Assembly (NCBI GenBank): GCA_028282885.1
Contig: JANQGX010000004.1
Location: 1-64,000 of the forward strand
Reading direction: 5' to 3'
DNA from: SAR324 cluster bacterium
GTDB taxonomy: Bacteria > SAR324 > XYD2-FULL-50-16
DNA: 64,000 nt
Part shown: piece after piece, positions 10,754 to 37,089 of the stretch
Layout of the letters: every line of letters begins with the position of its first letter
How positions within the stretch are numbered: position 1 is the first letter of the stretch
The notes under the pieces: model-generated
Databases searched by the model: none
What the model saw: the letters and a program-made list of their open reading frames with translations, nothing else
What the model was told of the DNA's origin: nothing
Made by a program: the position numbers and the translations under genes

Positions 10754-10796
10754 GTCGTCAACCACTCCTTTGAGATCCTTTATAACCGGAGTCGTC

Positions 10797-14990: not shown

Positions 14991-15003
14991 GGAATTGCCG
15001 AAC

Positions 15004-15420
15004 ATGGAACTGGTAACCAAAACCGAAGTGCGAATCCGATTCAGTGAAATTGACCCCCTGGGAATTGTCTGGCACGGAACATATGTAAAGTACTTCGAAG
15101 ACGGCAGGGAGGATTTTGGCAGGAAGTATGATTTGAATTATCTGGATTATTTTAAGGCAGGGTTGATCACCCCTATTGTCAAACTGGACGTAAACTATAA
15201 AAAAGATCTGAAATACGGAGAATCAATCATTGTGGAAACGCGCTACGTCGATTCGCCAGCAGCCAAAATCATATTCAAATACAGGCTGTATCGAGCTTCA
15301 GACAACGAACTTGTAACGACAGGATCCAGCACGCAGGTATTTCTAAATGAAAAACGACAATTGCTACTCACCATCCCCCCTATGTTTGAAGCGTGGAAGC
15401 TCAAATGGGGTATTACCTGA
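15004..15420 (+). CDS. 4HBT-family acyl thioesterase
   Basis: 'IRFSEIDPLGIVWHGTYVKYFEDGREDFGRKY' hotdog thioesterase signature. ATG at 15004 preferred over TTG at 14995. Confidence 0.85.
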   Translation: MELVTKTEVRIRFSEIDPLGIVWHGTYVKYFEDGREDFGRKYDLNYLDYFKAGLITPIVKLDVNYKKDLKYGESIIVETRYVDSPAAKIIFKYRLYRASDNELVTTGSSTQVFLNEKRQLLLTIPPMFEAWKLKWGIT

Positions 15421-17267: not shown

Positions 17268-17511
17268 ACTGATTGCAAAACTGAAAGCACAAATCATCGA
17301 AGAACTGTCCCTGGAGGATTTGTCACCTGAAGAACTGGAGGATGATGAACCGTTGTTTGGTGAGGGTCTGGGACTGGATTCCATTGATGCGCTTTCACTT
17401 GTCGTTGTTCTTGATCGTGATTATGGCATACAGATAGAAGATCCCGAACAGGGAAAAGATATCCTCTTCTCCGTCAAAACCATCGCCGAGTACATAACCA
17501 AAAACAAATGA
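17260..17511 (+). CDS. acyl carrier protein
   Basis: 'GEGLGLDSIDALSLVVVLDRDYGI' DSI phosphopantetheine site; probable start M at 17260. Confidence 0.92.
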   Translation: MDELIAKLKAQIIEELSLEDLSPEELEDDEPLFGEGLGLDSIDALSLVVVLDRDYGIQIEDPEQGKDILFSVKTIAEYITKNK

Positions 17512-18713: not shown

Positions 18714-18715
18714 TA

Positions 18716-19776: not shown

Positions 19777-21087
19777 ATGAAAAATAAAGATCATAAGATA
19801 AAAACCGATCCGGACCTGGCTTTCCAACAACCCGATGCCATCAAAGCCTTTCAGTTGGAATGCCTGAAAGACCATTTGCAGTACTGTTATGACAACTCGC
19901 CCTATTATCACAGACTGATAGAGAGTCAAAACATCAGGATCGACACGGTTACGAGCGAAACCCTTGGTTCCTTTCCCCTGACGTCAAAGGCAGATATCGA
20001 AGCCTGTAACGATGATTTCCAGGGTGCGCACGACGACAGGATTGTCGATATAGTCATGTCATCCGGAACAACCGGCAAACCGACCCGGATCTTGTATACC
20101 GACTCGGATCTGCAACGGCTGGCTTACAATGAAGAAACCAGTTTGAGAAGCTGTGGACTTACAGCCGCAGATAAAGTGTTGCTGACCTGCACCATTGATC
20201 GATGTTTTATTGCCGGACTCGCCTACTTCTCAGGTCTCAGAAACATAGGAGCAGCCGCAATCCGTAACGGGCAGAATACCTTGGAAAGTCATACAGAGGT
20301 GATTCGCCGTTTACAACCTACAGCGATCATCGGTGTCCCCAGCTTTTTAAAAAAACTGGGGGAATTCATCAGTAAGGAAGACCGGGGCCTTGTTGCTCCC
20401 ATCAAAAAACTGATCTGCATCGGCGAACCGATCAGGGACCGGAAACTCGAAAATCTTGATATTGCCGGACGGCTTGAAACTGAATGGCAGGCTCATTTGT
20501 ATTCGACCTATGCCTCCTCGGAAACCATCACTTCATTTTGCGAATGTTCCGCCGGAGCTGGTGGTCATTTACTAGCCGATCTGGCTATGGTTGAAATCGT
20601 CGATGATCATGGCAAGGTTTCGCCTCCGGGGCAAACCGGGGAAATAGTGGTCACACCGCTTGGAATCACAGGGATGCCGTTGATTCGATTCAAAACAGGC
20701 GATATTAGCTTTCTGGTTGATGAATCCTGCTCATGTGGCAGATATACCCCCAGGTTGGGCCCAATCCTGGGTAGAAAAGCACAAATGCTGAAAATCAGGG
20801 GAACCACACTCTATCCCCAGTCAATCGTGTCGGTTATGGAGGGAATTGAGGACATTACAGATTTTTATATCCAATGTACGAAAGAGAATGAGTTATCCGA
20901 CCTGGTAACCATTCATGCCGCCACTGATAGTGACAGGCTGACAGCAGCGGACATAGAAAAAAGACTTCAGGCCTCACTCAGGGTTAAACCAAAAGTTGTG
21001 ATCGAATCCGGAGCAGAAGTAAGACAGCAGATCTTTAATCCCAGTTATCGTAAACCCGTTCGCTTTTTTGATAAACGGAACCAGTAG
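19777..21087 (+). CDS. AMP-forming ligase, phenylacetate-CoA ligase (PaaK)-like
   Basis: 'IVMSSGTTGKPTRILYTDSDL', 'LYSTYASSETITSFCEC', 'GTTLYPQSIVSVMEGIEDITDF'. Confidence 0.85.
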   Translation: MKNKDHKIKTDPDLAFQQPDAIKAFQLECLKDHLQYCYDNSPYYHRLIESQNIRIDTVTSETLGSFPLTSKADIEACNDDFQGAHDDRIVDIVMSSGTTGKPTRILYTDSDLQRLAYNEETSLRSCGLTAADKVLLTCTIDRCFIAGLAYFSGLRNIGAAAIRNGQNTLESHTEVIRRLQPTAIIGVPSFLKKLGEFISKEDRGLVAPIKKLICIGEPIRDRKLENLDIAGRLETEWQAHLYSTYASSETITSFCECSAGAGGHLLADLAMVEIVDDHGKVSPPGQTGEIVVTPLGITGMPLIRFKTGDISFLVDESCSCGRYTPRLGPILGRKAQMLKIRGTTLYPQSIVSVMEGIEDITDFYIQCTKENELSDLVTIHAATDSDRLTAADIEKRLQASLRVKPKVVIESGAEVRQQIFNPSYRKPVRFFDKRNQ

Positions 21088-21097
21088 AGCAGTTTTT

Positions 21098-22210
21098 ATG
21101 TCTTTTTGCAGTTTTGATATCGCGAATTTTGAATTCCCGACTGAGGAGATTGAGAGGACCCGCAAAGTTTCCGGGCTTCTCTCCATGGAGATTGAACTCA
21201 GCCAGCGCTGTAATTTTAAATGCCCGTACTGTTATGTTGAAGGTGCAGAGGACTATTCCGACGAGCTGACGCTGTCTGAAATCAAAAATGTCATCGTACA
21301 GGCCAGGGACCTTGGAGCCAGAAAAATCATTCTCCTGGGAGGAGAACCCATGATCCATCCTCACCTGCCGGAGTTGGTCCGCTTTATTTCGGAAAACAAA
21401 CTGGAAACAGAGATGTTTACCAACGGATCCAAAATCACTAGTGAAGTAGCAGAGGAGCTATTTAGAAACAGGGTCCGGGTCGTATTGAAAATGAACACCT
21501 TTGACAAGGATTTGCAAAATACCCTATGCGGAACCAATAACGCCTACCAGGTGATTCATGCTGCATTTGATAACCTGAAAAAAGCGGGTTATCCGGGGAA
21601 GAATTCACTGCTGGCAATAAGTACGATCATTTGCCAACAAAACATTGACCAGCTTCCCGAGTTCTGGACCTGGTTGAGGGATCAAAACATCCTGCCCTAT
21701 TTCGAAATGATCACCCCACAGGCCAGCGCCAGGCAGAACGAGTGGCTGGTGGTGGAACCGACGAGAATTAAACTGCTGTTCGATGAACTCTCCCGAATCG
21801 ACCATGAAAAATATGGAATTGAATGGTCTCCTCAACCTCCACTGGCCGGGAATAAATGTCTCAGGCACCAGTTTTCCTGCGTGGTAAATTCTGTTGGAGA
21901 TGTTCTGCCCTGTGTGGGCGTTACCAAATCGGCCGGAAACATAAGAAATGATGAATTGAGAACCATCCTCAGACAAAGCAAGGTTTTTGAAGATCTGCGG
22001 AATTTTAGAACTTCAATCTCCGGCCCCTGCAGTGTTTGTGAAAAATCCGATTTTTGCTATGGATGTCGGGGAGCTGCTTTTCAATTAACGGGTGACCACC
22101 TGGCATCGGATCCCTTATGCTGGAAAAACTACAAAGGACGATCCAAGGGAACTTCGGATGGGGATTTATCTAACGGATGCCATCGCAATCCGGACTCATC
22201 CGTGGCCTGA
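21098..22210 (+). CDS. radical SAM protein with SPASM-like C-terminal Cys cluster
   Basis: 'ELSQRCNFKCPYCYVEG' CX3CX2C, 'IILLGGEPMIHPHL', C-terminal Cys-rich 'CVVNSVGDVLPCVGV...CSVCEKSDFCYGCRG...CW'. Start uncertain (21068 or 21098). Confidence 0.87.
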   Translation: MSFCSFDIANFEFPTEEIERTRKVSGLLSMEIELSQRCNFKCPYCYVEGAEDYSDELTLSEIKNVIVQARDLGARKIILLGGEPMIHPHLPELVRFISENKLETEMFTNGSKITSEVAEELFRNRVRVVLKMNTFDKDLQNTLCGTNNAYQVIHAAFDNLKKAGYPGKNSLLAISTIICQQNIDQLPEFWTWLRDQNILPYFEMITPQASARQNEWLVVEPTRIKLLFDELSRIDHEKYGIEWSPQPPLAGNKCLRHQFSCVVNSVGDVLPCVGVTKSAGNIRNDELRTILRQSKVFEDLRNFRTSISGPCSVCEKSDFCYGCRGAAFQLTGDHLASDPLCWKNYKGRSKGTSDGDLSNGCHRNPDSSVA

Positions 22211-22251: not shown

Positions 22252-22866
22252 ATGAACAACATTGTCCGTTTTTCAGCCTTGCTTTCAATCATGCTCTGCT
22301 TTACCCCTTCGGTTTTGGCTTGGACAAATGATTGGCAAAGCATTCGAGAAGCTACTGATGGAATTCACACCATCAAATCGGAATTCATTCAGGAAAAGCA
22401 CCTGCCGATCCTGAAAAAGCCGCTTGTTTCCCGGGGATTGATCTGCTTCCATAAACCCGGTTCCCTGCGGTGGGAATATCAAACCCCCGTTTCATCGGTG
22501 CTTATAACGCACAAGGGTGATATCAAAAGATTCATCAAACACGAAGGATCATTTCAGGAAGATGCGGGAGCCCATCTGGAAGCCATGCAGATTGTACTTG
22601 AAGAGATCAGCTTCTGGCTGGCGGGTCAGTTTGACAAAAGTCCCGGTTTCAGGGCAACACTGGAGCAGGCAGGACAGATTGTCCTGATCCCGAAAAACAG
22701 TCAGATAACCAAATTCATAACCCGAATCGAACTGGATCTCGCTGATCAGCCTGGAATGATTAAAACGGTGACCATTTTTGAAAGCAAGACATCTTTCACC
22801 CGGTTGACATTTGAAAATACTATTTTGAATGAATCCATACCTCCCGAAGTTTTTCAAAAGCCCTAA
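22252..22866 (+). CDS. LolA-like periplasmic lipoprotein/lipid carrier
   Basis: Signal peptide 'IVRFSALLSIMLCFTPSVLAW'; 'DGIHTIKSEFIQEKHLPILKKPLVSRGLICFHKPGSLRWEYQTP'. Confidence 0.85.
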   Translation: MNNIVRFSALLSIMLCFTPSVLAWTNDWQSIREATDGIHTIKSEFIQEKHLPILKKPLVSRGLICFHKPGSLRWEYQTPVSSVLITHKGDIKRFIKHEGSFQEDAGAHLEAMQIVLEEISFWLAGQFDKSPGFRATLEQAGQIVLIPKNSQITKFITRIELDLADQPGMIKTVTIFESKTSFTRLTFENTILNESIPPEVFQKP

Positions 22867-23560
22867 AGTCATTCTTGGACTTACACTGATCGTATTAGCG
22901 CTTGGATCCTGCACAACAGCGCAATTAGTGTCTGATTCGGGTTTTCCGGCACACCAGGACAGTTCGATTGAAAAAATCTGCCTGAGTCCCTTTGTGCAAA
23001 ACAAAGTTCAGTTCATTCATTCCCTTCACGTATCCCTTCCCGGATCAAACAGCAGCAAAGTCCTGGGCGTTACCAACATTAATCCCGAAAACGAATCCTT
23101 TGAGAGTATTATTATGTCCCTTGAAGGTCTTGTGCTGTTTCATGTCGATTTCCGGGATGGAAAAAACGAGATCAAGAAAAGCGTGGATCCCTTCTCTTCA
23201 AAGGCCTTTCAGGATGGATTGATAAAGGATATTCAATTGATTTTTCTGGTGCCCGATGGTAAGTTGGCAAAAGCAGGTCGAATCGGGGATGACACCGATT
23301 CAGCGGCTTGCAGATATCGATCTGCTAACGACAATCTGATCGATATCGCTGTGCTCCCAAATCAAGGTTGGAGCATAAAAAAGTACGGCGCAACCGGTAA
23401 GCTGATCAAATCAATCCAAGCTATCGAAAACAGCAGACTACACGGTGAATCGCAGTGGCAGTATCCGAATCGGGTTATTCTCAAGGGGGAGGGGCTTTTC
23501 GGATACTCATTAACCATGGATTTAATTGAGTTTAACGATCTTGAGGAATCCATACCATAA
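22829..23560 (+). CDS. lipoprotein, DUF3261-like (aryl-polyene cluster associated)
   Basis: Lipobox 'LALGSC', size and position directly after LolA as in aryl-polyene clusters; family call is by context and weak resemblance. Confidence 0.6.
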   Translation: MNPYLPKFFKSPKVILGLTLIVLALGSCTTAQLVSDSGFPAHQDSSIEKICLSPFVQNKVQFIHSLHVSLPGSNSSKVLGVTNINPENESFESIIMSLEGLVLFHVDFRDGKNEIKKSVDPFSSKAFQDGLIKDIQLIFLVPDGKLAKAGRIGDDTDSAACRYRSANDNLIDIAVLPNQGWSIKKYGATGKLIKSIQAIENSRLHGESQWQYPNRVILKGEGLFGYSLTMDLIEFNDLEESIP

Positions 23561-23747: not shown

Positions 23748-25481
23748 GTGCTCATGGAACAGAGTCTGCAGAATGCCATTATTTCAGGTGTCGACCGTAT
23801 CGCTGCCTGGTCCGACCTTCTGGATGATATCAACGTTTTCCCCATAGCGGACGGCGATACCGGCAGAAACCTGATTGCCAGTCTTACACCCCTGAGACAA
23901 CTCAACGGCAACAGGGAAGATACCATTCAGCAACTGCTGATGGCAGCCAGGGGGAACTCCGGAAACATAGCCACCCGATTTCTTTCAGGGCTGTTGACTG
24001 CAGATTCTACAGCGATCCTGGGAAAAGCATTCAAACTGGGGAGAGATGCGGCCTGGAAGGCGGTTAACGACCCTGTTCCCGGTACCATGCTGACGGTGTT
24101 TGATGCACTGGTTGAGTTCATCGAGAATGAAACCTTCAAGAGCGATGAGGACTACATTTCCCGCATCACAAAACACCTGGAGGAAATTGTACAATCCACC
24201 CCGAATCAGCTCCCCCTGCTAAAATCGGCTGGTGTCGTTGACTCCGGTGCCTTGGGAATGTATGTCTTTCTGGAAGGTTTCTTCAACAGTCTGATCGATC
24301 AAGCTGAAAACTGTGTTCCCATCACCGCCCGTTTTAAGGGATTACTGCAAATTAAACCCACCTTCAAGGAACAACAGGAAGAGGGCTATTGCGTGGATTT
24401 TGTGGTCAGGGTGGAAGGCAATGCTGAAGACAAAATGGCTGAACTGGCTGACCTGGGGGAAAGTACCGTTATTATTCCCCATAACGACTATCTGAAAGTC
24501 CATCTTCATACCGGTGAACCGATTGCGGTGAGAGAGAAGATTGAGCAGATCGGTACCATTGTCACCTGGGAAAATGATGATCTGACAAAGCAGATTAAAT
24601 CCTTCATGCAGACCCGGAAACAGGGCAAGATTCACATCATGACCGACGCGGCCGGTTCGCTGACACGAACTGATGCACAGAATATGGGATTCACCCTGCT
24701 GGACAGCTATATCGTCACCAGTGAGAAATCTCTTCCGGAAACCCTGTTTTCACCCGATGAAATATATCGGATGATGCGTGATCAACAGAAAATTTCCACC
24801 TCCCAGGCTTCCGATTTCGAACGCCACCAATCCTACCAGAGTGTGCTGGAACAGTATGAAAGCATACTTTATCTCTGCGTGGGTTCCGTTTTCACCGGCA
24901 ACTACCAGGTTGCCTGTAATTGGAAAAAGGAACACGATCCGGAGAACCGGTTTATCGTTCTTGATACCACTGCCGCTTCGGGAAGACTGGCTATTATTGT
25001 GATGGCAGTAAGCCGTTTCGCTGCGAGTACGGATGATCCCTCACAAGTGGTGGAGTTCGCAAGAAAGACCATCGAGCAGGCGGAAGAGTATGTTTTTCTG
25101 GATAAGCTTAAATATCTCGCTGCAGGAGGAAGACTGTCCAAATCCAGTGCTTTCTTTGGTGATATGTTGAGCATGAAACCGATTGTCAGCCCTTTGGCAG
25201 AAGGAGCCAAGAAAGTGGGAATTGCCCGCAATCAGCGTGCTCAATTGAAGTTTGCCTGTGAAAAACTGGAAACCGGTCTAACCGGCGACTCCAAAGCTCT
25301 GATTCTACTGGAGTATTCCGACAATTTATCCTGGGTGGATGCGGTTCCCAAAAAAGAAATCGCCAAACGTTTTCCTTCCGCTGAGATCATCCTGCAACCT
25401 CTTTCCCTGACCTCCGGTGTACACATGGGTCCCGGTACTTGGGCATTGGCATTTCTGCCTGACGCAAAACAGGCTGAATAG
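23748..25481 (+). CDS. DAK2 (FakA-like) - DegV (FakB-like) fusion, putative fatty acid kinase
   Basis: 'INVFPIADGDTGRNLIASL', 'AARGNSGNI', 'LKVHLHTGEP' (DAK2 and middle domain); 'IHIMTDAAGSLT', 'ISTSQAS', 'SVFTGNYQVA', 'LKYLAAGGRLSKSSAFFGDMLSMKPI' (DegV). Confidence 0.88.
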   Translation: MLMEQSLQNAIISGVDRIAAWSDLLDDINVFPIADGDTGRNLIASLTPLRQLNGNREDTIQQLLMAARGNSGNIATRFLSGLLTADSTAILGKAFKLGRDAAWKAVNDPVPGTMLTVFDALVEFIENETFKSDEDYISRITKHLEEIVQSTPNQLPLLKSAGVVDSGALGMYVFLEGFFNSLIDQAENCVPITARFKGLLQIKPTFKEQQEEGYCVDFVVRVEGNAEDKMAELADLGESTVIIPHNDYLKVHLHTGEPIAVREKIEQIGTIVTWENDDLTKQIKSFMQTRKQGKIHIMTDAAGSLTRTDAQNMGFTLLDSYIVTSEKSLPETLFSPDEIYRMMRDQQKISTSQASDFERHQSYQSVLEQYESILYLCVGSVFTGNYQVACNWKKEHDPENRFIVLDTTAASGRLAIIVMAVSRFAASTDDPSQVVEFARKTIEQAEEYVFLDKLKYLAAGGRLSKSSAFFGDMLSMKPIVSPLAEGAKKVGIARNQRAQLKFACEKLETGLTGDSKALILLEYSDNLSWVDAVPKKEIAKRFPSAEIILQPLSLTSGVHMGPGTWALAFLPDAKQAE

Positions 25482-25495
25482 GCTCTTTTCTCGAA

Positions 25496-26245
25496 ATGTT
25501 ATCCCCCAAAAGACCGGTGAATCGATTTGCATACGTGATACCCGTCTATAACCATGAAGAGATGGTGGCTAAGGTTGTGGAACAGGCATTGGAAGAGGGA
25601 TATCCGGTCATTATCGTTAATGATGGTTCCACCGATCGATCAATGGAACATCTCAAAAACGTCGAAGGGCTTACGATTCTGCACCATGAAACCAACCTTG
25701 GCAAAGGTGCCGCCCTTAAAACCGGTTTTAAGGAGGCGGTCAAAATTGCAGACTGGGCCATTACCATTGACGCTGACGGACAGCACGATCCGCGGGAGAC
25801 TGCTCGTTTGATTTCCGCAACTCGAGAACAGGATCGGCCCATAGTTGTGGGATTGAGAAGCAATATGGACGGCAAGGACGTTCCCTGGACAAGCCGCTTC
25901 GGACGCATGTTTTCCAATTTCTGGGTCTATGCATCCGGGGGAGCCTGGTTGAGAGACACTCAAAGCGGGTTCCGTACTTATCCCCTGCCGGAGATCAACC
26001 GTATAAAGACAAGGGGAAACCGCTATCAATACGAAGTGGAGATTCTGGCTAAAGCCGGATGGGCCGGTATTCCTGTGGTGGAAACCCCGATCAGCGTCTA
26101 TTATCATCCCGGTGACAAACGGATTTCACATTTTAAACCGTTTTTGGATTTCATGCGAAATTCGATTATATTTACGATCCTGATCGCACAGCGGATTTTG
26201 ATTCCTTCATCGGTTCGCAGGAAAATAATTCAAAATCCCGATTGA
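25496..26245 (+). CDS. family 2 glycosyltransferase (DPM-like)
   Basis: 'AYVIPVYNHEEMVAKVV', 'IIVNDGSTDRSME', 'NLGKGAALKTGF', 'ITIDADGQHDP', 'DTQSGFRTY'. Confidence 0.9.
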   Translation: MLSPKRPVNRFAYVIPVYNHEEMVAKVVEQALEEGYPVIIVNDGSTDRSMEHLKNVEGLTILHHETNLGKGAALKTGFKEAVKIADWAITIDADGQHDPRETARLISATREQDRPIVVGLRSNMDGKDVPWTSRFGRMFSNFWVYASGGAWLRDTQSGFRTYPLPEINRIKTRGNRYQYEVEILAKAGWAGIPVVETPISVYYHPGDKRISHFKPFLDFMRNSIIFTILIAQRILIPSSVRRKIIQNPD

Positions 26246-26324
26246 TTCCCTGACCGGATCAGCTTTCGGATTCCGGTATTCGCCTGAAATCCGACAGCAT
26301 CCGTCAATCAATAAAACCTTCAAC

Positions 26325-29300
26325 ATGCCGGCAAAAGAGCCTTCACCCATTGTCAACCTGCGTTTGCTAATCCTGACTGTAGTCTGCGTTTCTGCGCTCT
26401 TTCTCATCGGCCTGAATAGAATCCATATTGATTTTGATGTCATGAGTTCATTGCCGGATAGCGATCCGGTTGTTTCCGATGCAATTTATGTATTGACCCA
26501 TCATCCTTTTCAGGATCGGGTTGTTATCGATCTGACTTCGGAAAAGGCTGAACTCGACGAACTTATCGAAACTGCCCGTTTCATCGAACAGAGATTAAAG
26601 CAAAGTCTGCTTTTTGATCGGGTTGGATTTGGTGAAATTCAAACTCGGCTACCCGAACTCCTGGTCCATATTTCAGATCAACTGCCCTTTCTTTTCAGTC
26701 AAACTGACTTGGAGAAGCAGGTTACTCCAATGTTATCGACCCAAGCCCTCAACTCCCGCTTGATGTCTCTGATCGATCAACTCTCAAGCTTTGATGTCAT
26801 CGGTCAGGCGGATCTGATAGCCAGAGATCCCCTTAATCTTCGCAATATCATTTTGGGGAGACTCTCAGGGCTCATGCCTGTAAAAGGGACAGAATTCAAA
26901 ATGGGATATCCTATCTCCCCCGATGGCAGACATGTATTGATCCTGGCAACACCAAAACATTCCGGCACCAATACGGAAAATTCCAGAAAAATTACAGAGA
27001 CGATTGAAAACATCACCGGTGAATTGCAGAGTAAAGATTTCACAAGTCAAACTGATCCTCGCTTAACCACGGCAGGATCTTTTCGTGCGGCTCTGGACAA
27101 TGAAATGATTGTCAGAAATGACACCCGGAAGGCGATTCTGTTCGCCACAATTGGTATTGCCCTGATGCTGATGCTTGCTTTTCCTAGACCCTATTTAGGG
27201 TTGCTTTCCCTTGTTCCCGCTTTTGTCGGAACCGTCGTATCGTTTTTCGTATGCGCCCTGGTTCACGAATCAATGTCCATTTTGGCACTCGGGTTTGGAG
27301 GAGCGGTTATTTCCATCACCGTGGATCACAGTATTGCCTATCTGTTGTTTTTGGACCGTCAACAAAAAATAGATGTTCATCAATCAGCCCATGAAATCAG
27401 GTCCATAGGAATGATTGCCGTGATGACAACTGTTGGCGCTTTTCTCGTGCTGACCTTCAGCGGATTTAAGATTCTGGCACAAATAGGACAATTCGCCGCC
27501 ATGGGCATCGCCTTCTCTTTTCTGTTTATTCATACGGTTTTTCCAAAGATCGTGCCGATAATGCCACCTGCCGGTAAGATCAAAACACCACTGCTTCAGC
27601 GTCTGGTTAACATCACCGGCAAACCGGCCCGCTCTATTCCCGCACTCCTGGCTTTGATTGTAATGATGTTCATGCTGGTTCATGTCAAGACCGATTTTAA
27701 TGTCAATCTGCAGCAGATGAATACTGTCAGCAAAGAAACCCTGGCAGCAGAAGAGAAAATACAGCAGACCTGGGGTAACGTTTTCACCCGGGTATTTCTG
27801 CTGGTGGAATCTGATACTTTACCCGGTCTGCAGGACAAATCCGACAAACTGACAACACTTCTCGAATCTTTGGAAGAAGACGAACGGTTGGAATCACCTT
27901 TCACCCCGTCTTTGCTGTTTCCGGGCAAGAACAGAGCGGAAAGGAACCTGTCAGCCTGGCGGGCATTTTGGAAAGATGATCGTATTCGACAACTCAAGCT
28001 TGACCTGATTTCCGCATCATCGGCACTGGGATTTACAGAAGATGCCTTCAACCCTTTCTTCGAGGCACTGGATAACCGGGATTCCGCTGAAATTGTTGTA
28101 CCGGATTCCTTACAGGAGATGATGGGAATCTCTCATGATCGGGAATCAGGTCTGTGGCGACTCTTTATCTCGTTGACTCCGAGACCTGACTTCAGAAGCC
28201 GGGAACTGTTCTCCGTGACAGAAAATGACCCTGCCATCAGAGTATTCGACGCCGGTTTGTTCTCGGATAGTTTCGGGCGGTTGCTCTCCGATACATTCCT
28301 GAAAATGCTGGGGATAATTGCCGTAGCTGTCATTGTTCTTATTTTCGTATTTCTGCTGGATTGGAAGCTGACCCTGGTTTCACTGGTTCCCATCGCATTT
28401 GCCCTGGTATGCACCCTGGGAACCCTCAACATCCTGGATCATCCCCTGGATATACCCGGATTGATGCTGGCTATTGTCGTCGCCGGAATGGGCGTTGATT
28501 ACTCATTATTCATGGTCCGCTCCTACCAGAGATATGGAGATGAAGCTCACCAGTCCCACAGATTGGTTCGCACGGCTATCCTGTTGGCCGCATTATCCAC
28601 CATGATTGGTTTCGGTATTCTCGTTACTGCAGATCATTACTTGCTGCATAGCGCAGGATTGGTTTCCTTGCTCGGTATCGGCTATTCTTTACTGGGTGCT
28701 TACACCCTGCTTCCGCCTCTCCTGCGCAGGTACTGCATCGGTTTTAAAATCGACAGCGATTTCAAACCGAGAGGAAAAACCAGAATGAAGAGGGTGCTTT
28801 ATCGCTTCTCCCGGATGGAGGCCTATCACCGTATGTTTGCCAGGTTCAAAATGCTGATGGATCCCTTGTTTCAGGAGTTGGATCAGTTTCTGGACCAACC
28901 CTCACATATCATAGATATCGGGACAGGTATCGGGGTTCCGGCGGCCTGGATACTTGACAGATGGCCATCTGCCAGAATCTATGGGTTGGACCCGGATCCC
29001 GAAAGAGTCAGGGTGGCAAACCGCATACTCGGTTCGGACAACATCGTCAATCCGGGCGGGGCACCGGATATACCGAGGCCGCCGGTTGCCGCAGACACAG
29101 CCATAATGCTTGATATGCTTCATTACCTGGACAACAAAGAGCTGTTACAAACGCTTAAAACACTTTATCAATATCTGGATAATAGCGGCAGACTTATCAT
29201 TCGGGTAACCCTTCCTTTGAAAGATCGGCCTCCCTGGTATCGCTGGATCGAATCGAGACAGATCGAAATGCGCGGTGGCAGGCACCACTACAGGCCGCTT

Positions 29301-29423
29301 GCCGAAATCACTCCGATCCTGAAAGAGGCGGGTTACCACAGAATCACCAGCAAAGAATCGGGGAAAGGCAGGGAAGAAACCTGGATTACAGCCCGGAAAA
29401 AACCACTTGGACAAATGGAATGA
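26325..29423 (+). CDS. MMPL/RND-family exporter with C-terminal SAM methyltransferase domain
   Basis: Two RND repeats with TM bundles ('GFGGAVISITVDHSIAYLLF', 'VVAGMGVDYSLFMVRSY'); C-terminal 'IIDIGTGIGVPAAWILDRWPSARIYGLDPDPERV'. Confidence 0.9.
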   Translation: MPAKEPSPIVNLRLLILTVVCVSALFLIGLNRIHIDFDVMSSLPDSDPVVSDAIYVLTHHPFQDRVVIDLTSEKAELDELIETARFIEQRLKQSLLFDRVGFGEIQTRLPELLVHISDQLPFLFSQTDLEKQVTPMLSTQALNSRLMSLIDQLSSFDVIGQADLIARDPLNLRNIILGRLSGLMPVKGTEFKMGYPISPDGRHVLILATPKHSGTNTENSRKITETIENITGELQSKDFTSQTDPRLTTAGSFRAALDNEMIVRNDTRKAILFATIGIALMLMLAFPRPYLGLLSLVPAFVGTVVSFFVCALVHESMSILALGFGGAVISITVDHSIAYLLFLDRQQKIDVHQSAHEIRSIGMIAVMTTVGAFLVLTFSGFKILAQIGQFAAMGIAFSFLFIHTVFPKIVPIMPPAGKIKTPLLQRLVNITGKPARSIPALLALIVMMFMLVHVKTDFNVNLQQMNTVSKETLAAEEKIQQTWGNVFTRVFLLVESDTLPGLQDKSDKLTTLLESLEEDERLESPFTPSLLFPGKNRAERNLSAWRAFWKDDRIRQLKLDLISASSALGFTEDAFNPFFEALDNRDSAEIVVPDSLQEMMGISHDRESGLWRLFISLTPRPDFRSRELFSVTENDPAIRVFDAGLFSDSFGRLLSDTFLKMLGIIAVAVIVLIFVFLLDWKLTLVSLVPIAFALVCTLGTLNILDHPLDIPGLMLAIVVAGMGVDYSLFMVRSYQRYGDEAHQSHRLVRTAILLAALSTMIGFGILVTADHYLLHSAGLVSLLGIGYSLLGAYTLLPPLLRRYCIGFKIDSDFKPRGKTRMKRVLYRFSRMEAYHRMFARFKMLMDPLFQELDQFLDQPSHIIDIGTGIGVPAAWILDRWPSARIYGLDPDPERVRVANRILGSDNIVNPGGAPDIPRPPVAADTAIMLDMLHYLDNKELLQTLKTLYQYLDNSGRLIIRVTLPLKDRPPWYRWIESRQIEMRGGRHHYRPLAEITPILKEAGYHRITSKESGKGREETWITARKKPLGQME

Positions 29424-30295
29424 AACAACTCTTTTATAAAATCAGTCTATTCATATCCCGTTTCCTGGGAAGCTGGTTTTTTCTGGTTATTGCCAAGTGC
29501 ATTGCCCTGGGTTATTTTATCTTTTTTCCCGGCAGAGTTGGAAATTCCGTTAGATTTTACAGGGCTCTGTTTCCCGAAAGAAAACCGATCTATCACATAT
29601 GGTGTGCCTGGCTACAATATCAAAGCTTTACCAGGGTGTTTATTGATCGGTTTTTATTGCTGGAGAAAGGGAAAGTCACCCACACCTCCTCAGGTTGGGA
29701 ACATCTCGAAAAATGCATAAAGGACAAAACAGGGGGAATTATCCTGATGTCACACCTGGGTAACTGGGAAATAGCTGCCCACCTGCTGAAACAGAACCAT
29801 CAGGAGTTAAAATTGCTGCTTTATCTTGGCGTCAAACATAAGGAACAGATTGAAAAGATGCAGAAGGAAAGCCTGGTACAGAGCGGAACCCGAATCATTG
29901 CAGTCGATCAGGGCGGCGGTTCCCCCTTTCTGCTGCTGGAGAGTATCAAATGGATGAACGAAGGCGGACTGGTTTCTTTGACAGGCGATATTATCTGGAC
30001 ACGCGATCAGAAATCCGTTCCCGTGAATGTGCTGAGTCATCAGGCAAAAGTGCCTGAAACACCGCATATGCTGGCCTTGCTTTCGGGAAAACCCCTGTTT
30101 TTCCTGTTTATAACCCCGGCGGGAAAAAATCATTTTCATGTAGAAATCAGCGAACCGGTTTTTGTTAAAGCGGCCAACAGAAAAGAACGGAAAAATGCGG
30201 TGGCACAGTCCGCTCAACTATATGCTGACCGACTAATGGAAACTGTGAGAAAACACCCGTTTCAGTGGTTTCATTTCGAATCCTTTATCGATTAA
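29420..30295 (+). CDS. LpxL/HtrB-like acyltransferase
   Basis: 'ILMSHLGNWEIAAHLL', 'GLVSLTGDIIWT'; ATGA overlap with the exporter. Confidence 0.85.
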   Translation: MKQLFYKISLFISRFLGSWFFLVIAKCIALGYFIFFPGRVGNSVRFYRALFPERKPIYHIWCAWLQYQSFTRVFIDRFLLLEKGKVTHTSSGWEHLEKCIKDKTGGIILMSHLGNWEIAAHLLKQNHQELKLLLYLGVKHKEQIEKMQKESLVQSGTRIIAVDQGGGSPFLLLESIKWMNEGGLVSLTGDIIWTRDQKSVPVNVLSHQAKVPETPHMLALLSGKPLFFLFITPAGKNHFHVEISEPVFVKAANRKERKNAVAQSAQLYADRLMETVRKHPFQWFHFESFID

Positions 30296-30309
30296 GCAAT
30301 TGCAGGATC

Positions 30310-31089
30310 ATGCCGACCAGACTTGTTCAAAAATTCATCGATTTTGTTATTACAGCCCTGTTGTGGGTTTATTTTACCCTTGGTTTCCTGATCATGTTTG
30401 CTCCCTATTTCGTCTGGAAAACCATCCGGTCAGATATGAATGAGAAAGCATACCAGCGGTTGTTTCATCTCTTTTTCAGGGGCTTCTTCTCCATCCTGGT
30501 TTTCCTTTCGCCCCGTTTGAACATCCAAATCGACCCGGCTATTCGGTCGTTACGATCCTCGGTTATCGTCAGTAATCACCTGTCCTACCTGGATCCGTTA
30601 TTGATGATTGCCACTTTCGAGCAACAGAAAACCATTGTCAAAAATACGTTCTACAAAGTTCCCATTTTCGGTTGGTTGCTGAAAAAAGTCGGATATGTCC
30701 CCTCTGTCGCACAGGGAAAAAGTATGGCCCTGGTCATAAGACATGTCGGAGGTATGAAGGAGTACCTTAAAAGCGGTGGTAACCTGTTTGTTTTCCCGGA
30801 AGGAACGCGTAGCAGGAATGGGGAATTGGCTGAATTCAGCAAAGGCGCCTTCAGTATCGCCAACCAGTGTCAGGCACCGGTTCATATTGTATATATAAAA
30901 AATACGGGAAGTATCTTCAAACCGGGCAGCTATCTTTTCAATACCGGAAGAAAAACCACAATTGAAATGGAACTCCTGGGAACTTTGCAAAGCCGGAAAG
31001 GTAACGAACTGGATTCTGCTCTGGAAATGCTGGAGGCTTCCAAAAAACTGTTGAACAACAGGCTCTTGCAGGATAAATACAAAAGTTGA
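30310..31089 (+). CDS. 1-acyl-glycerol-3-phosphate acyltransferase (PlsC family)
   Basis: 'IVSNHLSYLDPLLM' (NHX4D), 'FVFPEGTRSRNGELAEFSKGAF'; ATG at 30310 preferred. Confidence 0.9.
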   Translation: MPTRLVQKFIDFVITALLWVYFTLGFLIMFAPYFVWKTIRSDMNEKAYQRLFHLFFRGFFSILVFLSPRLNIQIDPAIRSLRSSVIVSNHLSYLDPLLMIATFEQQKTIVKNTFYKVPIFGWLLKKVGYVPSVAQGKSMALVIRHVGGMKEYLKSGGNLFVFPEGTRSRNGELAEFSKGAFSIANQCQAPVHIVYIKNTGSIFKPGSYLFNTGRKTTIEMELLGTLQSRKGNELDSALEMLEASKKLLNNRLLQDKYKS

Positions 31090-31174
31090 TTCAACATTAC
31101 ATTTCACATAAACTGGGAGAGAATTTCCCGGTTTCATAGAATCCGATTCTTTATCGTATTCATACGATGTTCCT

Positions 31175-31765
31175 ATGATACAGACAATTACTATCTTGCT
31201 TCTCACAGCCTATCTGCTTGGATCCATTAACTTCTCCATTCTGTTGTTTGGATTACTGGGTAAATCCGATCCCAGAAACAGTCACAGTGGTAATCCAGGA
31301 GCGACAAATGTTTACCGACAGGCGGGACTTTTCTGGGCTGTGGTCGTCTTGTTATTGGATATCGGCAGATCTGTCGCTGTTGCCTTTGCCGCCATCACTT
31401 TCGGAGAAATCGATTTTGTCTCCTGGATTGGTCTCGCTTTGATTATCGGAAATCGCTTCCCCTGCTTTCACGGCTTCAAGGGGGGTAAAGGGGTTGCGAA
31501 TTTTCTGGGATTCTCAGCAGTATTGTCTCTTTACAGTGCCATCCTTTCAGGTATAGGCTGGCTCGCGGTTAATTACCTGACAAAACAACCTTTTCTGGCC
31601 TCTTTTACCATGATCGGTGTGTTGACCGCGGGAACCATCGTCACCTTACAAATGTCTCCGCTAGCCGCTTCCGGAACGATAGTAACCGCTGTGATGATCA
31701 TCTGGGGCCATCGGCGCAATATCACAGAATTCAGGAGGGAACAAATAGCAAAGAGAATGCAATGA
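31175..31765 (+). CDS. plsY: acyl-phosphate:glycerol-3-phosphate acyltransferase (PlsY family)
   Basis: 'YLLGSINFSILLFGLLGKSDPRNSHSGNPGATNVYR', 'GNRFPCFHGFKGGKGVANFLG'. Confidence 0.93.
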   Translation: MIQTITILLLTAYLLGSINFSILLFGLLGKSDPRNSHSGNPGATNVYRQAGLFWAVVVLLLDIGRSVAVAFAAITFGEIDFVSWIGLALIIGNRFPCFHGFKGGKGVANFLGFSAVLSLYSAILSGIGWLAVNYLTKQPFLASFTMIGVLTAGTIVTLQMSPLAASGTIVTAVMIIWGHRRNITEFRREQIAKRMQ

Positions 31766-33387
31766 ACAAACCCTGGCTAAAGCTTTATGATAAAGGTGTT
31801 CCCGAGTCTCTTGCTTATCCGGATCTGACCTTGCCCGAGATTCTGGATCGAACCGCGGAACGCCATCCCGATTTCAACGCTGTTACTCTTAATGAGAACA
31901 CCCTCAGTTACAGTGAATTAAACGACAGGGTTAAGGCATTGGCCCTCGGACTAAAAGAGCTCGGGATCAAAAAAGGTGATCGCATCGCGTTACTCATCCC
32001 CAATTCTCCTACCTATGTCATTGCACATTATGCAGTTGTCAGACTGGGCGCTATCGTTTGTAATATCAACGTTACTACCCAGGGCAGTGAGCTGACCCGG
32101 GTTCTCAACCATTCCGGATCAACCCTGTTAATCACGCTTGATCTGTTCCTGAAAACTATTATCGGCGCCACCGTGGAAACGCCGGTGGAGAACATATTGT
32201 TCCACTCCGTCTTCGGACTTGAAAAGGAGGTGGAAAAAAATCCCGATTTTCCAAAAACACACCGTGTGAATGAACTGATCGACCAATTCATGTCACATAA
32301 TTGCCCCATTGAGTGTTTGCCGGATGACACGGCAGTTCTGCAATTCACCAGCGGCGTGACGGGCCTTCCCAAAGCGGCTGTTCTTACCCATCGCACCATT
32401 ACTTCCAATATTCTGCAAATCGACTCCTGGAATCCAGTTCACGGAAAAGGTAATCGGGCGAATCTCTGTATTATTCCTTTTTTCCATGTTTTCGGAATGA
32501 CCGTCTGCATGCACGTTTCCATTCTACGCGCCTACCGGATGATTCTCTTCCCCATGTTCGACTGGTCGTCCCTGATCGAAATACTGGATGCTATCAGGAT
32601 TCACAAACCGATTTCATTCCCCGCCGTTCCAGCACTTTGGGCAGCGCTGGTCTCTTATGCCGACATAGAGAGAATTGACCTTTCCTCTATTGAAATAGCC
32701 AGCGGCGGCGGATCAAATCTACAGCCCTGGATCCAGGAGAAATATCATCATTTGACCGGCAGGTTTATCTCCCAGGCATACGGTCAGTCAGAAGCTTCCT
32801 CCACAATCCTGATTACGCCATTCTATAGCGGTCAGGTATCCGAAAGCGTCGGAATTCCACTGCCCGACACCGATGTGAAAATCGTTGATGTGGAGACCGG
32901 AGAAGCGGCGTGTAAAACAGGTGAAATCGGTGAGCTTATTGTATCCGGTCCCCAAATCATGAAAGGCTATTGGCACGACGATGAGAAAACAAAGGAAGCT
33001 CTCCGGGAAAACTGGCTCTATACCGGTGATCTTGGTTATATGGATGAACAAGGAAGGTTTTATCTGGTTGACCGAAAGGACGATCTGATTATATCCAGCG
33101 GATTCAACATTTATCCCAGCCGGATTGAAGAGGTGATAAAAGCTCACCCGGATGTAAAGGAAGTTGCTGTCGTCGGATTGCCGGACAAGCTGAGAGGAGA
33201 GGTTATTGCTGCCTTTATTGTTAAAGAAACGGACAAGAAGGTAGACTGGCGAATACTAAAAGCCCATTGCAGGGATCATTTACCCGACTATAAAATCCCC
33301 CGATTCTTCAAGTTCAGAAAGGATATTCCCAAGAACAGGATCGGAAAACCTTTGAGAAGACTGTTAAAATCAGAGCAACTCGATTGA
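31762..33387 (+). CDS. AMP-forming acyl-CoA/acyl-ACP ligase
   Basis: 'LQFTSGVTGLPKAAVLTHRTITSN', 'YGQSEAS', 'WLYTGDLGYMDEQGRFYLVDRKDDLIISSGFNIYPSRIEEV'. Confidence 0.93.
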   Translation: MNKPWLKLYDKGVPESLAYPDLTLPEILDRTAERHPDFNAVTLNENTLSYSELNDRVKALALGLKELGIKKGDRIALLIPNSPTYVIAHYAVVRLGAIVCNINVTTQGSELTRVLNHSGSTLLITLDLFLKTIIGATVETPVENILFHSVFGLEKEVEKNPDFPKTHRVNELIDQFMSHNCPIECLPDDTAVLQFTSGVTGLPKAAVLTHRTITSNILQIDSWNPVHGKGNRANLCIIPFFHVFGMTVCMHVSILRAYRMILFPMFDWSSLIEILDAIRIHKPISFPAVPALWAALVSYADIERIDLSSIEIASGGGSNLQPWIQEKYHHLTGRFISQAYGQSEASSTILITPFYSGQVSESVGIPLPDTDVKIVDVETGEAACKTGEIGELIVSGPQIMKGYWHDDEKTKEALRENWLYTGDLGYMDEQGRFYLVDRKDDLIISSGFNIYPSRIEEVIKAHPDVKEVAVVGLPDKLRGEVIAAFIVKETDKKVDWRILKAHCRDHLPDYKIPRFFKFRKDIPKNRIGKPLRRLLKSEQLD

Positions 33388-33546: not shown

Positions 33547-34812
33547 ATGAAGTTTAGATTGATTTACCCCAAATGGAAAAAACTTGAAGGTCAGACAACT
33601 TTTCATCTTCCCCCCCATGGTCCGGTTGTTTTTGGAGCTGCCGTGCCTGAAGATATCGATATCCGTTTCACCGATGAAAACGTGGAAGAGATTGATTTTG
33701 ATGAATCAGTCGATTTTGTCGGTATCTCCATGATGCTGACGATTCAAGTGAAACGAGGATGGGAAATAGCGGCAGAATTCAGAAGTCGCGGGATTCCTGT
33801 TATTTGCGGCGGTATTGCAACGACGCTGCATGCCGAAGAGTGTGGCCAACACACTGATTCCGTTTTTCTGGGAGAAGCGGAGGGGAGAATGGAAGAGGTT
33901 TTTTCCGATTTCAAAAACAATGCGTTAAAGAAGGTGTACAACTTCCGGAATCAACTGCCCCCCATTGAAACCGTGGGGACAGCCCGCAGGGATCTTCTCA
34001 ATCGTGATCTATACAATCACAAGGGCGTACAGATGGTGGATCTGGTTCACGCATCCAGGGGGTGTCGGTTTCATTGTTATCCTTGTGCCGTTGCCTACCT
34101 GGGAGGGAAAAAGTTCCGACCCAGACCCATTGAGAAAACGATTGAAGAGATGGCCAGCATTGACAACAATCGCCTTTTTATTGTGGACAACTCCCTGGCC
34201 CAGGACAAACAGTGGGAAATGGATCTGTTCAGGGAGATGATCCCTCTCAAAAAGAAATGGTGCTGTCATCCCATCGAAGATGATCCGAAAGTTTTGGATC
34301 TGGCAGCTCAAGCCGGTGCCTGGTATGTTTACCAGGCAGTATTTGATACCTCCGATTATATCAAGGAACGCATCAAACGATACCATGACCATGGTATAGG
34401 AGTTGAGGGGACTATTCTGCTGGGATTGGATAATCACACCGAAGATTATATCAAAGAGCTGATCGATTTTCTCCTTGAAATCAACCTGGATCTCGCGGAA
34501 TTCACTGTTCTAACTCCTTTTCCGCATACAACCGCTTACGAAGAACTCCAGGCTCAAGACAGGATTATATCCGATAACTGGGATGACTACTCTGCCGACA
34601 AAGTGGTTTATCAACCCAGGCATATGAGTGTCGACAGGTTGCAGGAGCTTCTGCAATACGCATGGGACACGTTTTATAAGGATGAATCCCAGCAGATGAA
34701 GATGTTCAAGCTGATTTATAAAGTAATGCAGAAAGAGAAAGCGGACAATACGTTCCGTCCCAGGAAGAGAAACCTGGCCAATCGTACTTTTGGACGCAAA
34801 GCTGCTGTTTGA
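33547..34812 (+). CDS. radical SAM enzyme with B12-binding-like N-terminus (HpnJ/HpnP-like architecture)
   Basis: 'DFVGISMMLTIQVKRGWEIAAEFRSRGIPVICGGIATTL', 'FLGEAEG', 'ASRGCRFHCYPCAV' (CX3CX2C), 'GVEGTILLGLDNH'. Confidence 0.88.
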   Translation: MKFRLIYPKWKKLEGQTTFHLPPHGPVVFGAAVPEDIDIRFTDENVEEIDFDESVDFVGISMMLTIQVKRGWEIAAEFRSRGIPVICGGIATTLHAEECGQHTDSVFLGEAEGRMEEVFSDFKNNALKKVYNFRNQLPPIETVGTARRDLLNRDLYNHKGVQMVDLVHASRGCRFHCYPCAVAYLGGKKFRPRPIEKTIEEMASIDNNRLFIVDNSLAQDKQWEMDLFREMIPLKKKWCCHPIEDDPKVLDLAAQAGAWYVYQAVFDTSDYIKERIKRYHDHGIGVEGTILLGLDNHTEDYIKELIDFLLEINLDLAEFTVLTPFPHTTAYEELQAQDRIISDNWDDYSADKVVYQPRHMSVDRLQELLQYAWDTFYKDESQQMKMFKLIYKVMQKEKADNTFRPRKRNLANRTFGRKAAV

Positions 34813-34833
34813 TCCTTTTTTATGGTATTTTCT

Positions 34834-35196
34834 ATGTTGAAAGGAACCTTTTTCAACACAAAAAATTTTGAGCGGCAGGACAAGCAGGCCATGATCGGGA
34901 TAACACTGAATCCGCTTCATAAAATTTACGAAGGGCATTTTCCGGGTGATCCGGTAACCCCTGGCGTGTGCCAAATTCAGATGGTCAAGGAAGTGATACG
35001 TGAGATAATCGGACAGGACCTTTTTCTACAGGAGGCCAAGAGTATCAAATTTCTCAACATCCTGACACCGGATTGCGAAAACCTGAACCTGGAAATGGAA
35101 TGGGATGAAAATGATTCCGTGGTTGACGTCACGGCCCGCCTAAGTTCAGGAGATCAGATTTTCCTCAAGTTTTCGGGCAGGTTTCTGATACGTTGA
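34834..35196 (+). CDS. FabZ/hotdog dehydratase-like protein
   Basis: 'IGITLNPLHKIYEGHFPGDPVTPGVCQIQMVKEV' hotdog with GHFP; Gln where FabZ has the catalytic Glu. Confidence 0.82.
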   Translation: MLKGTFFNTKNFERQDKQAMIGITLNPLHKIYEGHFPGDPVTPGVCQIQMVKEVIREIIGQDLFLQEAKSIKFLNILTPDCENLNLEMEWDENDSVVDVTARLSSGDQIFLKFSGRFLIR

Positions 35197-35355: not shown

Positions 35356-37089
35356 ATGGTGTTGACTGGCTACCTGCTTTTGGTATTTATACTTCTCTGT
35401 CTCCTGTTTCAAAGGCCGGAGCAGCCTTTGATGGTCATCGTTCCTCTGGCTGCCGCATTGAACCTATGGATTTATGATGTCGGTTTTTTCGGAATCAATC
35501 TGCAAAAAACACAAGTATTTCTATTGGTGTTAATGCCATTGTTGCTGGCCGGATACATAAAAATTGCCTTTCATCGCAAGTATTATCGGTTTTTTCCCAA
35601 ACCATTGATTTACCTGCTACTGTTAATGGGAGTCCTCGTCTCCATCAGCTCTTATTTTAATCCGGATCACGCCGGAGGAGTTTTTCAGTATTCCAGTCTC
35701 GTCCTTTATACCCTCGCGGGAATTCCCTTAACAGCACATTTCCTTTTTCATAACCGGGCAAACCGGGGCAAAGCACCTCGAACCCTGGAAACCATAATCA
35801 ACAGTGTCATCGCCTATATTCTGTTTATCACGGGGTGTCTGATGCTAACCCTTCTGGGAGTTTTTCTATTTGTGCTCATCCCCGGTCACCGCAATGGTAA
35901 AAAACGCAGACTGCTTTATCATCACATCATCAGAAACTTCTGTCGCTTTTTGATCTTCGCGACGGTGCGCAAGCATAAGACTATAAATCTGACCAACAAC
36001 ACCTTTACCCGACCGTCGATTGTTATCGCCAATCATCAATCGTTTATAGATCTGATTGTCATTCTCAGCCTGAATCCAAACCTGGTTCTTTTGACAAACG
36101 ATTGGGTGTGGAACTCTCCTCTCTTTGGACGGATTGTTCGTTGGGCGGATTACTACCCGGTCTCATCCGGTATTGAAAACAGCCTTGTCAGATTAAAAAA
36201 TAAAGTGGACCAGGGTTTCTCCATTGTTGTTTTTCCCGAAGGTACCCGCTCCGAGAACGGAAAAATCAAGCGGTTTAAGAAAGGGGCGTTTTATCTCGCC
36301 GAAAAACTGGGACTCGACATTTTGCCTGTTTTTCTCCACGGTACCGGAATCGGCATCACCAAAGGAGAATTCCTGCTTAAAAAAACTTTTTTAACCACCA
36401 TGGTTTCGGATGGTATTACACAAGAAGACCGACGATTCTCAAACTCCTATTCACAGCGTACGAAAGAAGTTACCACCTGGTTCAGAAAAGAATACACAAA
36501 GTTTCAAAAGCGCTGCATGACTCCCAGTCTCATGGAAGGACAGATGAAACATGCTTTTGCCTTTCGAGGAAGGTTGCTCAACCGTAAATTAAAGAGCCTC
36601 TTTGTCCGGGAAAACTATCTCCTTAAACTGGCGCTTGAACTGGAACAGGCTGAACAGATTCTGCATTTGGGTTGCGGTGCCGGCGAGATCGGTCGCCTGC
36701 TGAATATGCAATTAACCAACTTTCAGTTTATCGGTCTCGACAGCAGAAAAACATCCATCGAAATTGCAGCAGACATGGCTGCTCATGACGAACACATGAC
36801 GTTTATGAAACCTTCCGACTTCAATCCCGACCGGGTTGAATTTGATGCCTGCCTGGTAGATGTCGGTAGAATACGAAATGACAATGAAATCACCCATGAG
36901 TTTTTGCAGAATCTTCTTGAGCGATTAAAAAAGCCCGGGAAACTGATCCTGTATAATTTTGACCGAGACGATCGACAGGAGATGTCATACCTGTTTAGTT
37001 TAAATGATTTCGACAATCGTGGCTGGCAAAGAAAAAGCGCAAACTCGGAACGGAACCCGATCCTCATTTTCAGGAAACTTCATGCATAA
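35356..37089 (+). CDS. fusion: hydrophobic N-terminus (possible MMPL remnant) - PlsC acyltransferase - SAM methyltransferase
   Basis: PlsC: 'VIANHQSFIDLIVIL', 'VVFPEGTRSENGKIKRFKKGAF'; MT: 'QILHLGCGAGEIGRLL...FIGLDSR'; N-terminal ~140 aa hydrophobic. Confidence 0.83.
   Translation: MVLTGYLLLVFILLCLLFQRPEQPLMVIVPLAAALNLWIYDVGFFGINLQKTQVFLLVLMPLLLAGYIKIAFHRKYYRFFPKPLIYLLLLMGVLVSISSYFNPDHAGGVFQYSSLVLYTLAGIPLTAHFLFHNRANRGKAPRTLETIINSVIAYILFITGCLMLTLLGVFLFVLIPGHRNGKKRRLLYHHIIRNFCRFLIFATVRKHKTINLTNNTFTRPSIVIANHQSFIDLIVILSLNPNLVLLTNDWVWNSPLFGRIVRWADYYPVSSGIENSLVRLKNKVDQGFSIVVFPEGTRSENGKIKRFKKGAFYLAEKLGLDILPVFLHGTGIGITKGEFLLKKTFLTTMVSDGITQEDRRFSNSYSQRTKEVTTWFRKEYTKFQKRCMTPSLMEGQMKHAFAFRGRLLNRKLKSLFVRENYLLKLALELEQAEQILHLGCGAGEIGRLLNMQLTNFQFIGLDSRKTSIEIAADMAAHDEHMTFMKPSDFNPDRVEFDACLVDVGRIRNDNEITHEFLQNLLERLKKPGKLILYNFDRDDRQEMSYLFSLNDFDNRGWQRKSANSERNPILIFRKLHA

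Follow-up and report, generated by a model that had tools for sequence, protein, structure and literature searches.

A FakA-DegV fusion with PlsY and PlsC in an aryl polyene-type gene cluster of SAR324 bacteria: a putative dedicated acyl-phosphate route

The stretch of DNA analysed here, hereafter the window, comprises 64,000 nucleotides (positions 1 to 64,000, forward strand) of contig JANQGX010000004.1 from the assembly GCA_028282885.1 of a SAR324 cluster bacterium, a lineage placed by NCBI in Deltaproteobacteria incertae sedis. Judged by its genes, the window carries a cluster of the aryl-polyene/flexirubin type with a type II polyketide set, and an aryl polyene is its predicted product. 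Within the cluster a single ORF joins a FakA-like kinase to a DegV (FakB-type) domain; the next six genes have the same orientation and include those for PlsC- and PlsY-family acyltransferases. The genes concerned, together with a thioesterase located further upstream, are the following.

14995-15420, + strand: 4HBT thioesterase (YbgC/FadM/MenI-type), candidate acid releaser (PF13279, 4HBT_2, E 1.5e-16)
23754-25481, + strand: FakA(N)-FakA(L/M)-FakB(DegV) fusion, proposed one-piece fatty acid kinase (Pfam, PDB matches, invariant residues)
25496-26245, + strand: GT2 glycosyltransferase, possible sugar step, resembling the glycosyltransferase half of ApeJ (PF00535, E 9.9e-22)
26325-29423, + strand: MMPL/RND exporter-methyltransferase fusion, ApeM-like (PF03176, E 1.1e-14; PF13489, E 3.7e-11)
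29420-30295, + strand: LpxL-like acyltransferase (PF03279, E 4.1e-13)
30265-31089, + strand: PlsC-like lysophosphatidate acyltransferase (PF01553, E 1.2e-22)
31175-31765, + strand: PlsY (PF02660, E 4.8e-36)
31762-33387, + strand: FadD-like acyl-CoA ligase overlapping PlsY by 4 bp, candidate maker of the acyl donor for PlsC (PF00501, E 1.4e-81)

The distances between neighboring genes from the fusion to the ligase are, in order, 14, 79, -4, -31, 85 and -4 bp, with 193 bp upstream of the fusion. A promoter and terminator scan detected sites no more often than in shuffled sequence and gives no operon limits. An earlier reading of the window, made from the sequence alone and hereafter called the sequence-only reading, had placed PlsC and PlsY after the fusion, and both are indeed found there, on the same strand and tightly packed; it made no mention of the other four genes, namely those for GT2, the MMPL-methyltransferase, the LpxL-like enzyme and the acyl-CoA ligase. 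The thioesterase it placed at 15004-15420 is real and belongs to the ORF 14995-15420, whose best NCBIfam match is NF047424 MenI_Staph (E 1.9e-24, below the cut-off).

Pfam assigns three domains to the ORF 23748-25481: Dak2 (residues 32-178, E 6.7e-18), FakA-like_M (residues 213-284, E 3.2e-12) and DegV PF02645 (residues 294-571, E 9.5e-45), the last covering positions 1-279 of the 280-position profile and scoring 151.9 bits with TIGR00762, above the cut-off of 99.7. Alignment with homologues places the start at the ATG at 23754 and not at the GTG at 23748, giving a protein of 575 aa. A FakA-like kinase and a full DegV domain in one ORF, as previously claimed, are thus confirmed by Pfam and by the translation, in which all the motifs quoted in support (DGDTG, RGNSG, VHLHT, STSQ, SVFTGNYQ and GGRL) are present. 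In comparisons with PDB sequences the N-terminal part matches S. aureus FakA and the C-terminal part FakB1/DegV proteins, and no match to the family of the FakA C-terminal domain was found on the fusion in the Pfam, NCBIfam and PDB comparisons. The whole-length FakA/YloV models stay below their cut-offs (TIGR03599, 190.9 bits against 396.1; NF038248, 116.3 against 975), and their match stops at residue 294-295. The possibility that the DegV part is the FakB-related C-terminal fold of FakA itself was ruled out by the full-length DegV/FakB1 match, the presence of R173 and the lack of a FakA-C family match.

Residues were compared across ten SAR324 and Desulfobacterota homologues, nine of which share 44-79% identity with the window protein. 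All ten keep N29, D35, D37, T38, N70 and D165, which correspond to the Mg/nucleotide ligands N32, D38, D40, T41, N82 and D185 of S. aureus FakA, as well as C215, H252 and H254, the counterparts of the catalytic Cys240, His282 and His284 of the FakA linker domain. Equally invariant is R462, which equals R173 of FakB1 in a gapless alignment of residues 448-480 with FakB1 159-191. In the two-protein system the Cys-His-His of FakA and Arg173 of FakB form the Fak active site, and FakA_C binds FakB, while FakA_NL alone retains Fak activity at high FakB (PMC9136124). By its domain composition the fusion is a FakA that has kept the N and L domains and dropped the docking domain C, with FakB tethered in its place, and we propose that it acts as a one-chain fatty acid kinase. 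The AlphaFold2 model has a mean pLDDT of 76 and a pTM of 0.75, with residues 454-492 below 50. No description of a FakA-DegV fusion, or of Fak in biosynthetic clusters, was found in the literature searched.

The fusion is the sole DegV protein of the window genome. DegV occurs in only four of the 52 genomes of the class, namely those possessing the cluster, where it is fused every time and lies about 6 kb upstream of the sole PlsY. The three relatives are SAR324 cluster bacterium PL25a_bin.53 (G047) and OS_PC_MetaG.mb.69 (G046), of the same genus as the window genome, and OS_PC_MetaG.mb.142 (G045), of the same family; the block is syntenic across the four genomes. PlsX (PF02504) was detected in G045, G046 and G047, its gene sitting between fabG and rpmF/DUF177, but not in the window genome. 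There the same locus is unbroken (contig C93, 175 kb, no N) and has the continuous order fabF-acpP-fabG-rpmF-DUF177-scpA-gltB, with fabG and rpmF separated by a short non-coding stretch. The distance from fabG to DUF177 is 816 bp, compared with 1754 bp with plsX in G046, and tblastn detected no plsX remnant at this locus. An assembly gap behind the missing gene was ruled out by the unbroken contig, these two distances and the lack of a remnant; the loss of plsX at its syntenic locus is real. A move of plsX to the unassembled few percent of the genome is possible but unlikely. With plsX lost, no acyl-phosphate source other than the fusion was found in the window genome, where no search was aimed at unfused FakA.

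The search of the genome for further plsY and plsX genes suggested by the sequence-only reading found neither a second PlsY nor any PlsX. That reading had also regarded a sole plsY/plsC as a sign of a housekeeping role. The PlsY at 31175-31765 is indeed a single copy, unlike PlsC, as the genome contains 12 matches to its family (PF01553); a sole plsY is nevertheless harmless to the proposal because PlsB, which all four SAR324 cluster genomes including that of the window encode at full length, can fill the housekeeping role. A second PlsB-like protein of about 490 aa with a partial GPAT_C match was also noticed (G000:C68:139880-140863), and it occurs in G045 and G046 as well. Relatives of the class without the cluster mostly have a canonical PlsY and no full-length PlsB. 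In one family of the class (f3; G001-G010, up to 97% complete) neither PlsY (PF02660) nor the PlsB C-terminal domain (PF19277) was found, PlsX being present in eight of the ten genomes.

The window PlsY scores 108.6 bits with TIGR00023, under the cut-off of 137.2, and is therefore a divergent PlsY; with PF02660 the cluster PlsYs reach 115-125 bits versus about 143-182 for the remaining full-length PlsYs in the class. A maximum-likelihood tree of five cluster PlsYs and 20 canonical ones (15 from SAR324, five from Desulfobacterota) unites the former, four from SAR324 and one from the Desulfobacterota genome HGW-Deltaproteobacteria-19 (G056), in a clade with 100/100 support and long branches, and all the canonical proteins fall outside it. 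In G056 the sole PlsY adjoins PlsC and shares a contig with the fusion, at a distance of about 26 kb within a cluster of about 40 kb, and PlsB is present. The cluster PlsC proteins share 44-54% identity between clusters and at most about 30% with the other PlsC-type proteins of the genome. Because PlsB is full-length, the PlsY clade is cluster-specific and plsX is lost, a housekeeping role of PlsY is unlikely although it is the sole copy in the genome.

From the parts, their catalytic residues, the synteny, the cluster-specific PlsY and PlsC lineages, the presence of PlsB and the loss of plsX, all established at the level of sequence, we infer the enzyme activities, the order of the steps and the use of a (poly)enoic acid of the cluster rather than an ordinary fatty acid. 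The 4HBT thioesterase would free the acid from its carrier protein, and the DegV domain of the fusion would hold it for ATP-dependent phosphorylation, with tethering standing in for the FakB-docking domain. The cluster PlsY, a PlsY-family variant for which acyl-phosphate use is predicted, would then acylate glycerol-3-phosphate (G3P) at its 1-position, and the cluster PlsC would fill the 2-position, probably from the acyl-CoA made by the adjoining ligase or from acyl-ACP. The lipid may be decorated and exported by the GT2, LpxL-like, MMPL and LolA-type proteins, while PlsB would start bulk phospholipid separately. In vitro, the FakAB product is used by PlsY only and the FadD product by PlsC only (PMC13400652); with both activators encoded beside both acyltransferases, each glycerol position could receive a different acid.

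The cluster thus seems to have a lipid-making pathway of its own, apart from everyday membrane synthesis. A dedicated route from the kinase to PlsY via acyl-phosphate, the central claim of the sequence-only reading, is quite probable given the sole DegV, the sole PlsY, the presence of PlsB, the loss of plsX, the cluster-specific lineages and the synteny. The whole chain from the thioesterase through the fusion to a PlsY/PlsC-made lipid of the pigment cluster is our best explanation, which we hold with a moderate degree of confidence. As for the claim that the substrate is a cluster acid released by the thioesterase, its release step is favored by six Desulfobacterota loci, each with a 4HBT thioesterase immediately ahead of the fusion (spacing of about 0-27 bp in one estimate and about 0-50 bp between the ends of matches or ORFs; L028, L029 and L031 show 2 bp or an overlap). 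This acid may well be the polyene, but we lean slightly towards doubt. More tentative still is the suggestion that the one-chain kinase makes polyenoyl-phosphate and that a neofunctionalised PlsY with His92 changed to Asn is specialised for it, giving pigment glycerophospholipids without PlsX.

Several observations weigh against the proposed route or limit it. In all five cluster PlsYs the position of A. aeolicus His92 is occupied by Asn (Asn93 in the window protein), whereas His is found in 20 of the 20 others. This His helps bind the phosphate of acyl-phosphate and is conserved in 97.8% of PlsYs, with Asn at the position in 0.5%, and the A. aeolicus H92N variant keeps 7% activity with acyl-phosphate, its Km for G3P not being raised (PMC5700162). 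Because of this change in the acyl-phosphate site, canonical acyl-phosphate use by the cluster PlsYs is not to be assumed. The G3P clamp is kept in the window PlsY (S38, R48, K105, N182 and H179 for Ser35, Arg45, Lys104, Asn180 and His177) and conserved in all 25 PlsYs aligned, and Thr41 is kept in the cluster PlsYs; the altered His92 position with an intact clamp fits either a switch of donor or a weak use of acyl-phosphate. In addition, the three sister SAR324 genomes retain PlsX, which therefore could feed PlsY there, and the thioesterase of the window is 8.3 kb away from the fusion. In the Desulfobacterota loci the fusion is followed by an LpxL-like gene and, where the contig allows, by ACP, KS and PlsC genes. 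This compact unit (thioesterase-fusion-LpxL-ACP-KS-PlsC) carries no PlsY; in five Desulfobacterota genomes possessing the fusion unit without PlsY, two with contigs ending inside the unit, the sole PlsY is canonical and encoded elsewhere. Since the compact unit also has neither ketoreductase nor dehydratase, the link of the fusion to polyene synthesis is not a strict one. Finally, the window genome is a draft of 95 contigs with 93.6% completeness, and the named relatives are metagenome-assembled genomes. In L026, L028 and L029 the compact unit adjoins an NAD(P)H-hydrate repair gene and possibly serves a dedicated long-chain acyl lipid.

Some of these observations would suit other explanations. 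The kinase, PlsY and PlsC might make a glycerophospholipid anchor from ordinary fatty acids, released or salvaged, with GT2 and the LpxL-like enzyme attaching the polyene to a sugar or headgroup as proposed for ApeJ of E. coli. This is a possibility to be taken seriously, though not one we expect to hold: both genes occur in the cluster and are conserved, E. coli mutants deleted for apeD or apeJ fail to attach the polyene acid to lipid (PMC8253772), the FakB ligands known so far are ordinary fatty acids and the compact Desulfobacterota unit has no polyene genes, but the altered acyl-donor site of a dedicated PlsY would be needless for an ordinary fatty acid, and ordinary lysophosphatidate is already supplied by PlsB. 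It is less likely that the fusion works chiefly for the LpxL-like acyltransferase, or returns acyl groups to ACP via PlsX, and that PlsY joined the SAR324 cluster secondarily. Such a history would fit the LpxL-like gene close to the fusion in all 10 loci, against PlsY in the cluster in only five, as well as the PlsX kept by three sister genomes; the window genome, however, has no PlsX for the reverse reaction, and we know of no LpxL-family enzyme that uses acyl-phosphate.

The change of His92 to Asn, rare among PlsYs, fixed in the five cluster proteins and costly to activity in A. aeolicus (PMC5700162), would also agree with a cluster PlsY that no longer uses acyl-phosphate, the fusion product going elsewhere or the fusion being vestigial. 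We consider this rather improbable, as the G3P clamp, Thr41 and the rest of the active site are kept, the Km for G3P was not raised by H92N and five PlsYs remain in the cluster of the fusion. There is very little to recommend the view that PlsY and PlsC simply initiate the synthesis of ordinary phospholipid and are neighbors of the polyene genes by chance: in its favor, the genome has no other PlsY, yet a full-length PlsB is present, the PlsY clade is cluster-specific across two phyla, plsX is lost, relatives without the cluster carry a different, canonical PlsY, and the synteny of PlsY is with the cluster genes.

The proposed thioesterase-kinase-PlsY route resembles the Firmicute FakA + FakB to PlsY pathway (S. 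aureus, E. faecalis, S. pneumoniae) in having Dak2, the Cys-His-His linker, a DegV carrier with Arg, and PlsY. It differs in being carried on one polypeptide, where FakB replaces the docking domain of FakA, and in its occurrence in SAR324 and Desulfobacterota, inside a biosynthetic cluster, with PlsB available for housekeeping. By analogy, it would also parallel the thioesterase-Fak bypass in which acid is taken off ACP, phosphorylated by Fak and used by PlsY without PlsX, and the window thioesterase best matches a staphylococcal MenI-type model; here, in contrast, the genome lacks plsX by nature and encodes the enzymes in a cluster. According to work cited in PMC13245860, S. pneumoniae and E. 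faecalis can bypass PlsX in this way; the precedent is partial because in S. aureus the thioesterase activity of FadM itself was judged dispensable for rescue (PMC13245860). Compared with the housekeeping PlsX-PlsY-PlsC pathway, the PlsY and PlsC families and the G3P-clamp residues are shared, but PlsX is missing, PlsY with His92 changed to Asn forms a separate clade and PlsB is present.

Fak-dependent acyl-phosphate chemistry has been described as a Gram-positive strategy (PMC10146087), whereas here it would be performed by a one-chain enzyme in SAR324 and Desulfobacterota and tied to a pigment/lipid cluster. In 2021 the molecule by which E. coli anchors aryl polyenes in its outer membrane had yet to be identified (PMC8253772), and one solved structure, from Xenorhabdus doucetiae, is cited there; the cluster offers a testable way of aryl polyene attachment. 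Should the polyenoyl-phosphate reading be true, it would be, within the literature found, the first case of acyl-phosphate chemistry reserved for a lipid of specialised metabolism. As the assembled Fak active site of the two-protein system had not yet been seen in 2022 (PMC9136124), the covalent FakA-FakB could ease crystallisation of the Fak catalytic complex.

The remaining genes on which the assignment of the cluster is based are listed below.

10028-10753, + strand: FlxB-type ketoreductase of flexirubin/aryl-polyene clusters (NF053542 FlxB, 388.3 bits, cut-off 340)
10737-12023, + strand: ketosynthase, KS (PF00109, E 9.5e-30; PF02801, E 2.7e-30)
12052-12294, + strand: acyl carrier protein, ACP (PF00550, E 3e-10)
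15440-19744, + strand: KS (15440-16597), small chain length factor (CLF)-like protein with no family match (16584-17267), ACP (17248-17511), KS (17508-18713) and CLF-like protein (18716-19744)
19777-21087, + strand: PaaK/FlxY-type AMP ligase, presumed to activate an aryl starter (NF053551 FlxY, 438.2 bits, below the cut-off of 520)
22252-22866, + strand: LolA-like chaperone (PF03548, E 1.3e-11; LolA2_flexi, 90.9 bits, below the cut-off)
22829-23560, + strand: lipoprotein-like ORF, DUF3261/LolB-like by position only
34822-35196, + strand: ApeI-type dehydratase (PF22818 ApeI-like, 32.7 bits, cut-off 28.5)
35356-37089, + strand: second PlsC-type acyltransferase, fused to a methyltransferase (PF01553, E 5e-20)

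The CLF roles are suggested by gene order and, for 18716-19744, also by Ser at the position of the active-site Cys. A FabZ-like dehydratase is also encoded in the gene set upstream of the fusion, and no separate enoyl reductase gene was detected among the scanned cluster ORFs. With FlxB (over the cut-off), ApeI-like, KS/CLF, ACP, FlxY-like ligase, thioesterase, LolA, MMPL exporter, GT2, LpxL-like and PlsC-like proteins, the cluster resembles ape/flx clusters, from which it differs in the extra B12/radical SAM enzymes and the acyl-CoA ligase; the gene table of E. coli ape contains no FakA, DegV or PlsY (PMC8253772). GT2 was found in all four SAR324 clusters as well as in L030 and L031.

A B12-binding radical SAM protein (33547-34812 in the window, 6603-7859 in L030) with a weak best match to HpnJ is one of the best-conserved in the cluster, with 70-85% identity even to the Desulfobacterota copy, whose fusion is 52% identical. 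Two more radical SAM enzymes, 13195-14574 (B12-type) and 21068-22210 (SPASM-type), lie within the polyene gene set; the G045 version of the cluster is devoid of this pair, the KS-CLF pairs and the FlxY-like ligase. The PlsC-methyltransferase fusion (35356-37089) is followed by a CrtD/CrtI-like FAD oxidoreductase (37004-38587).

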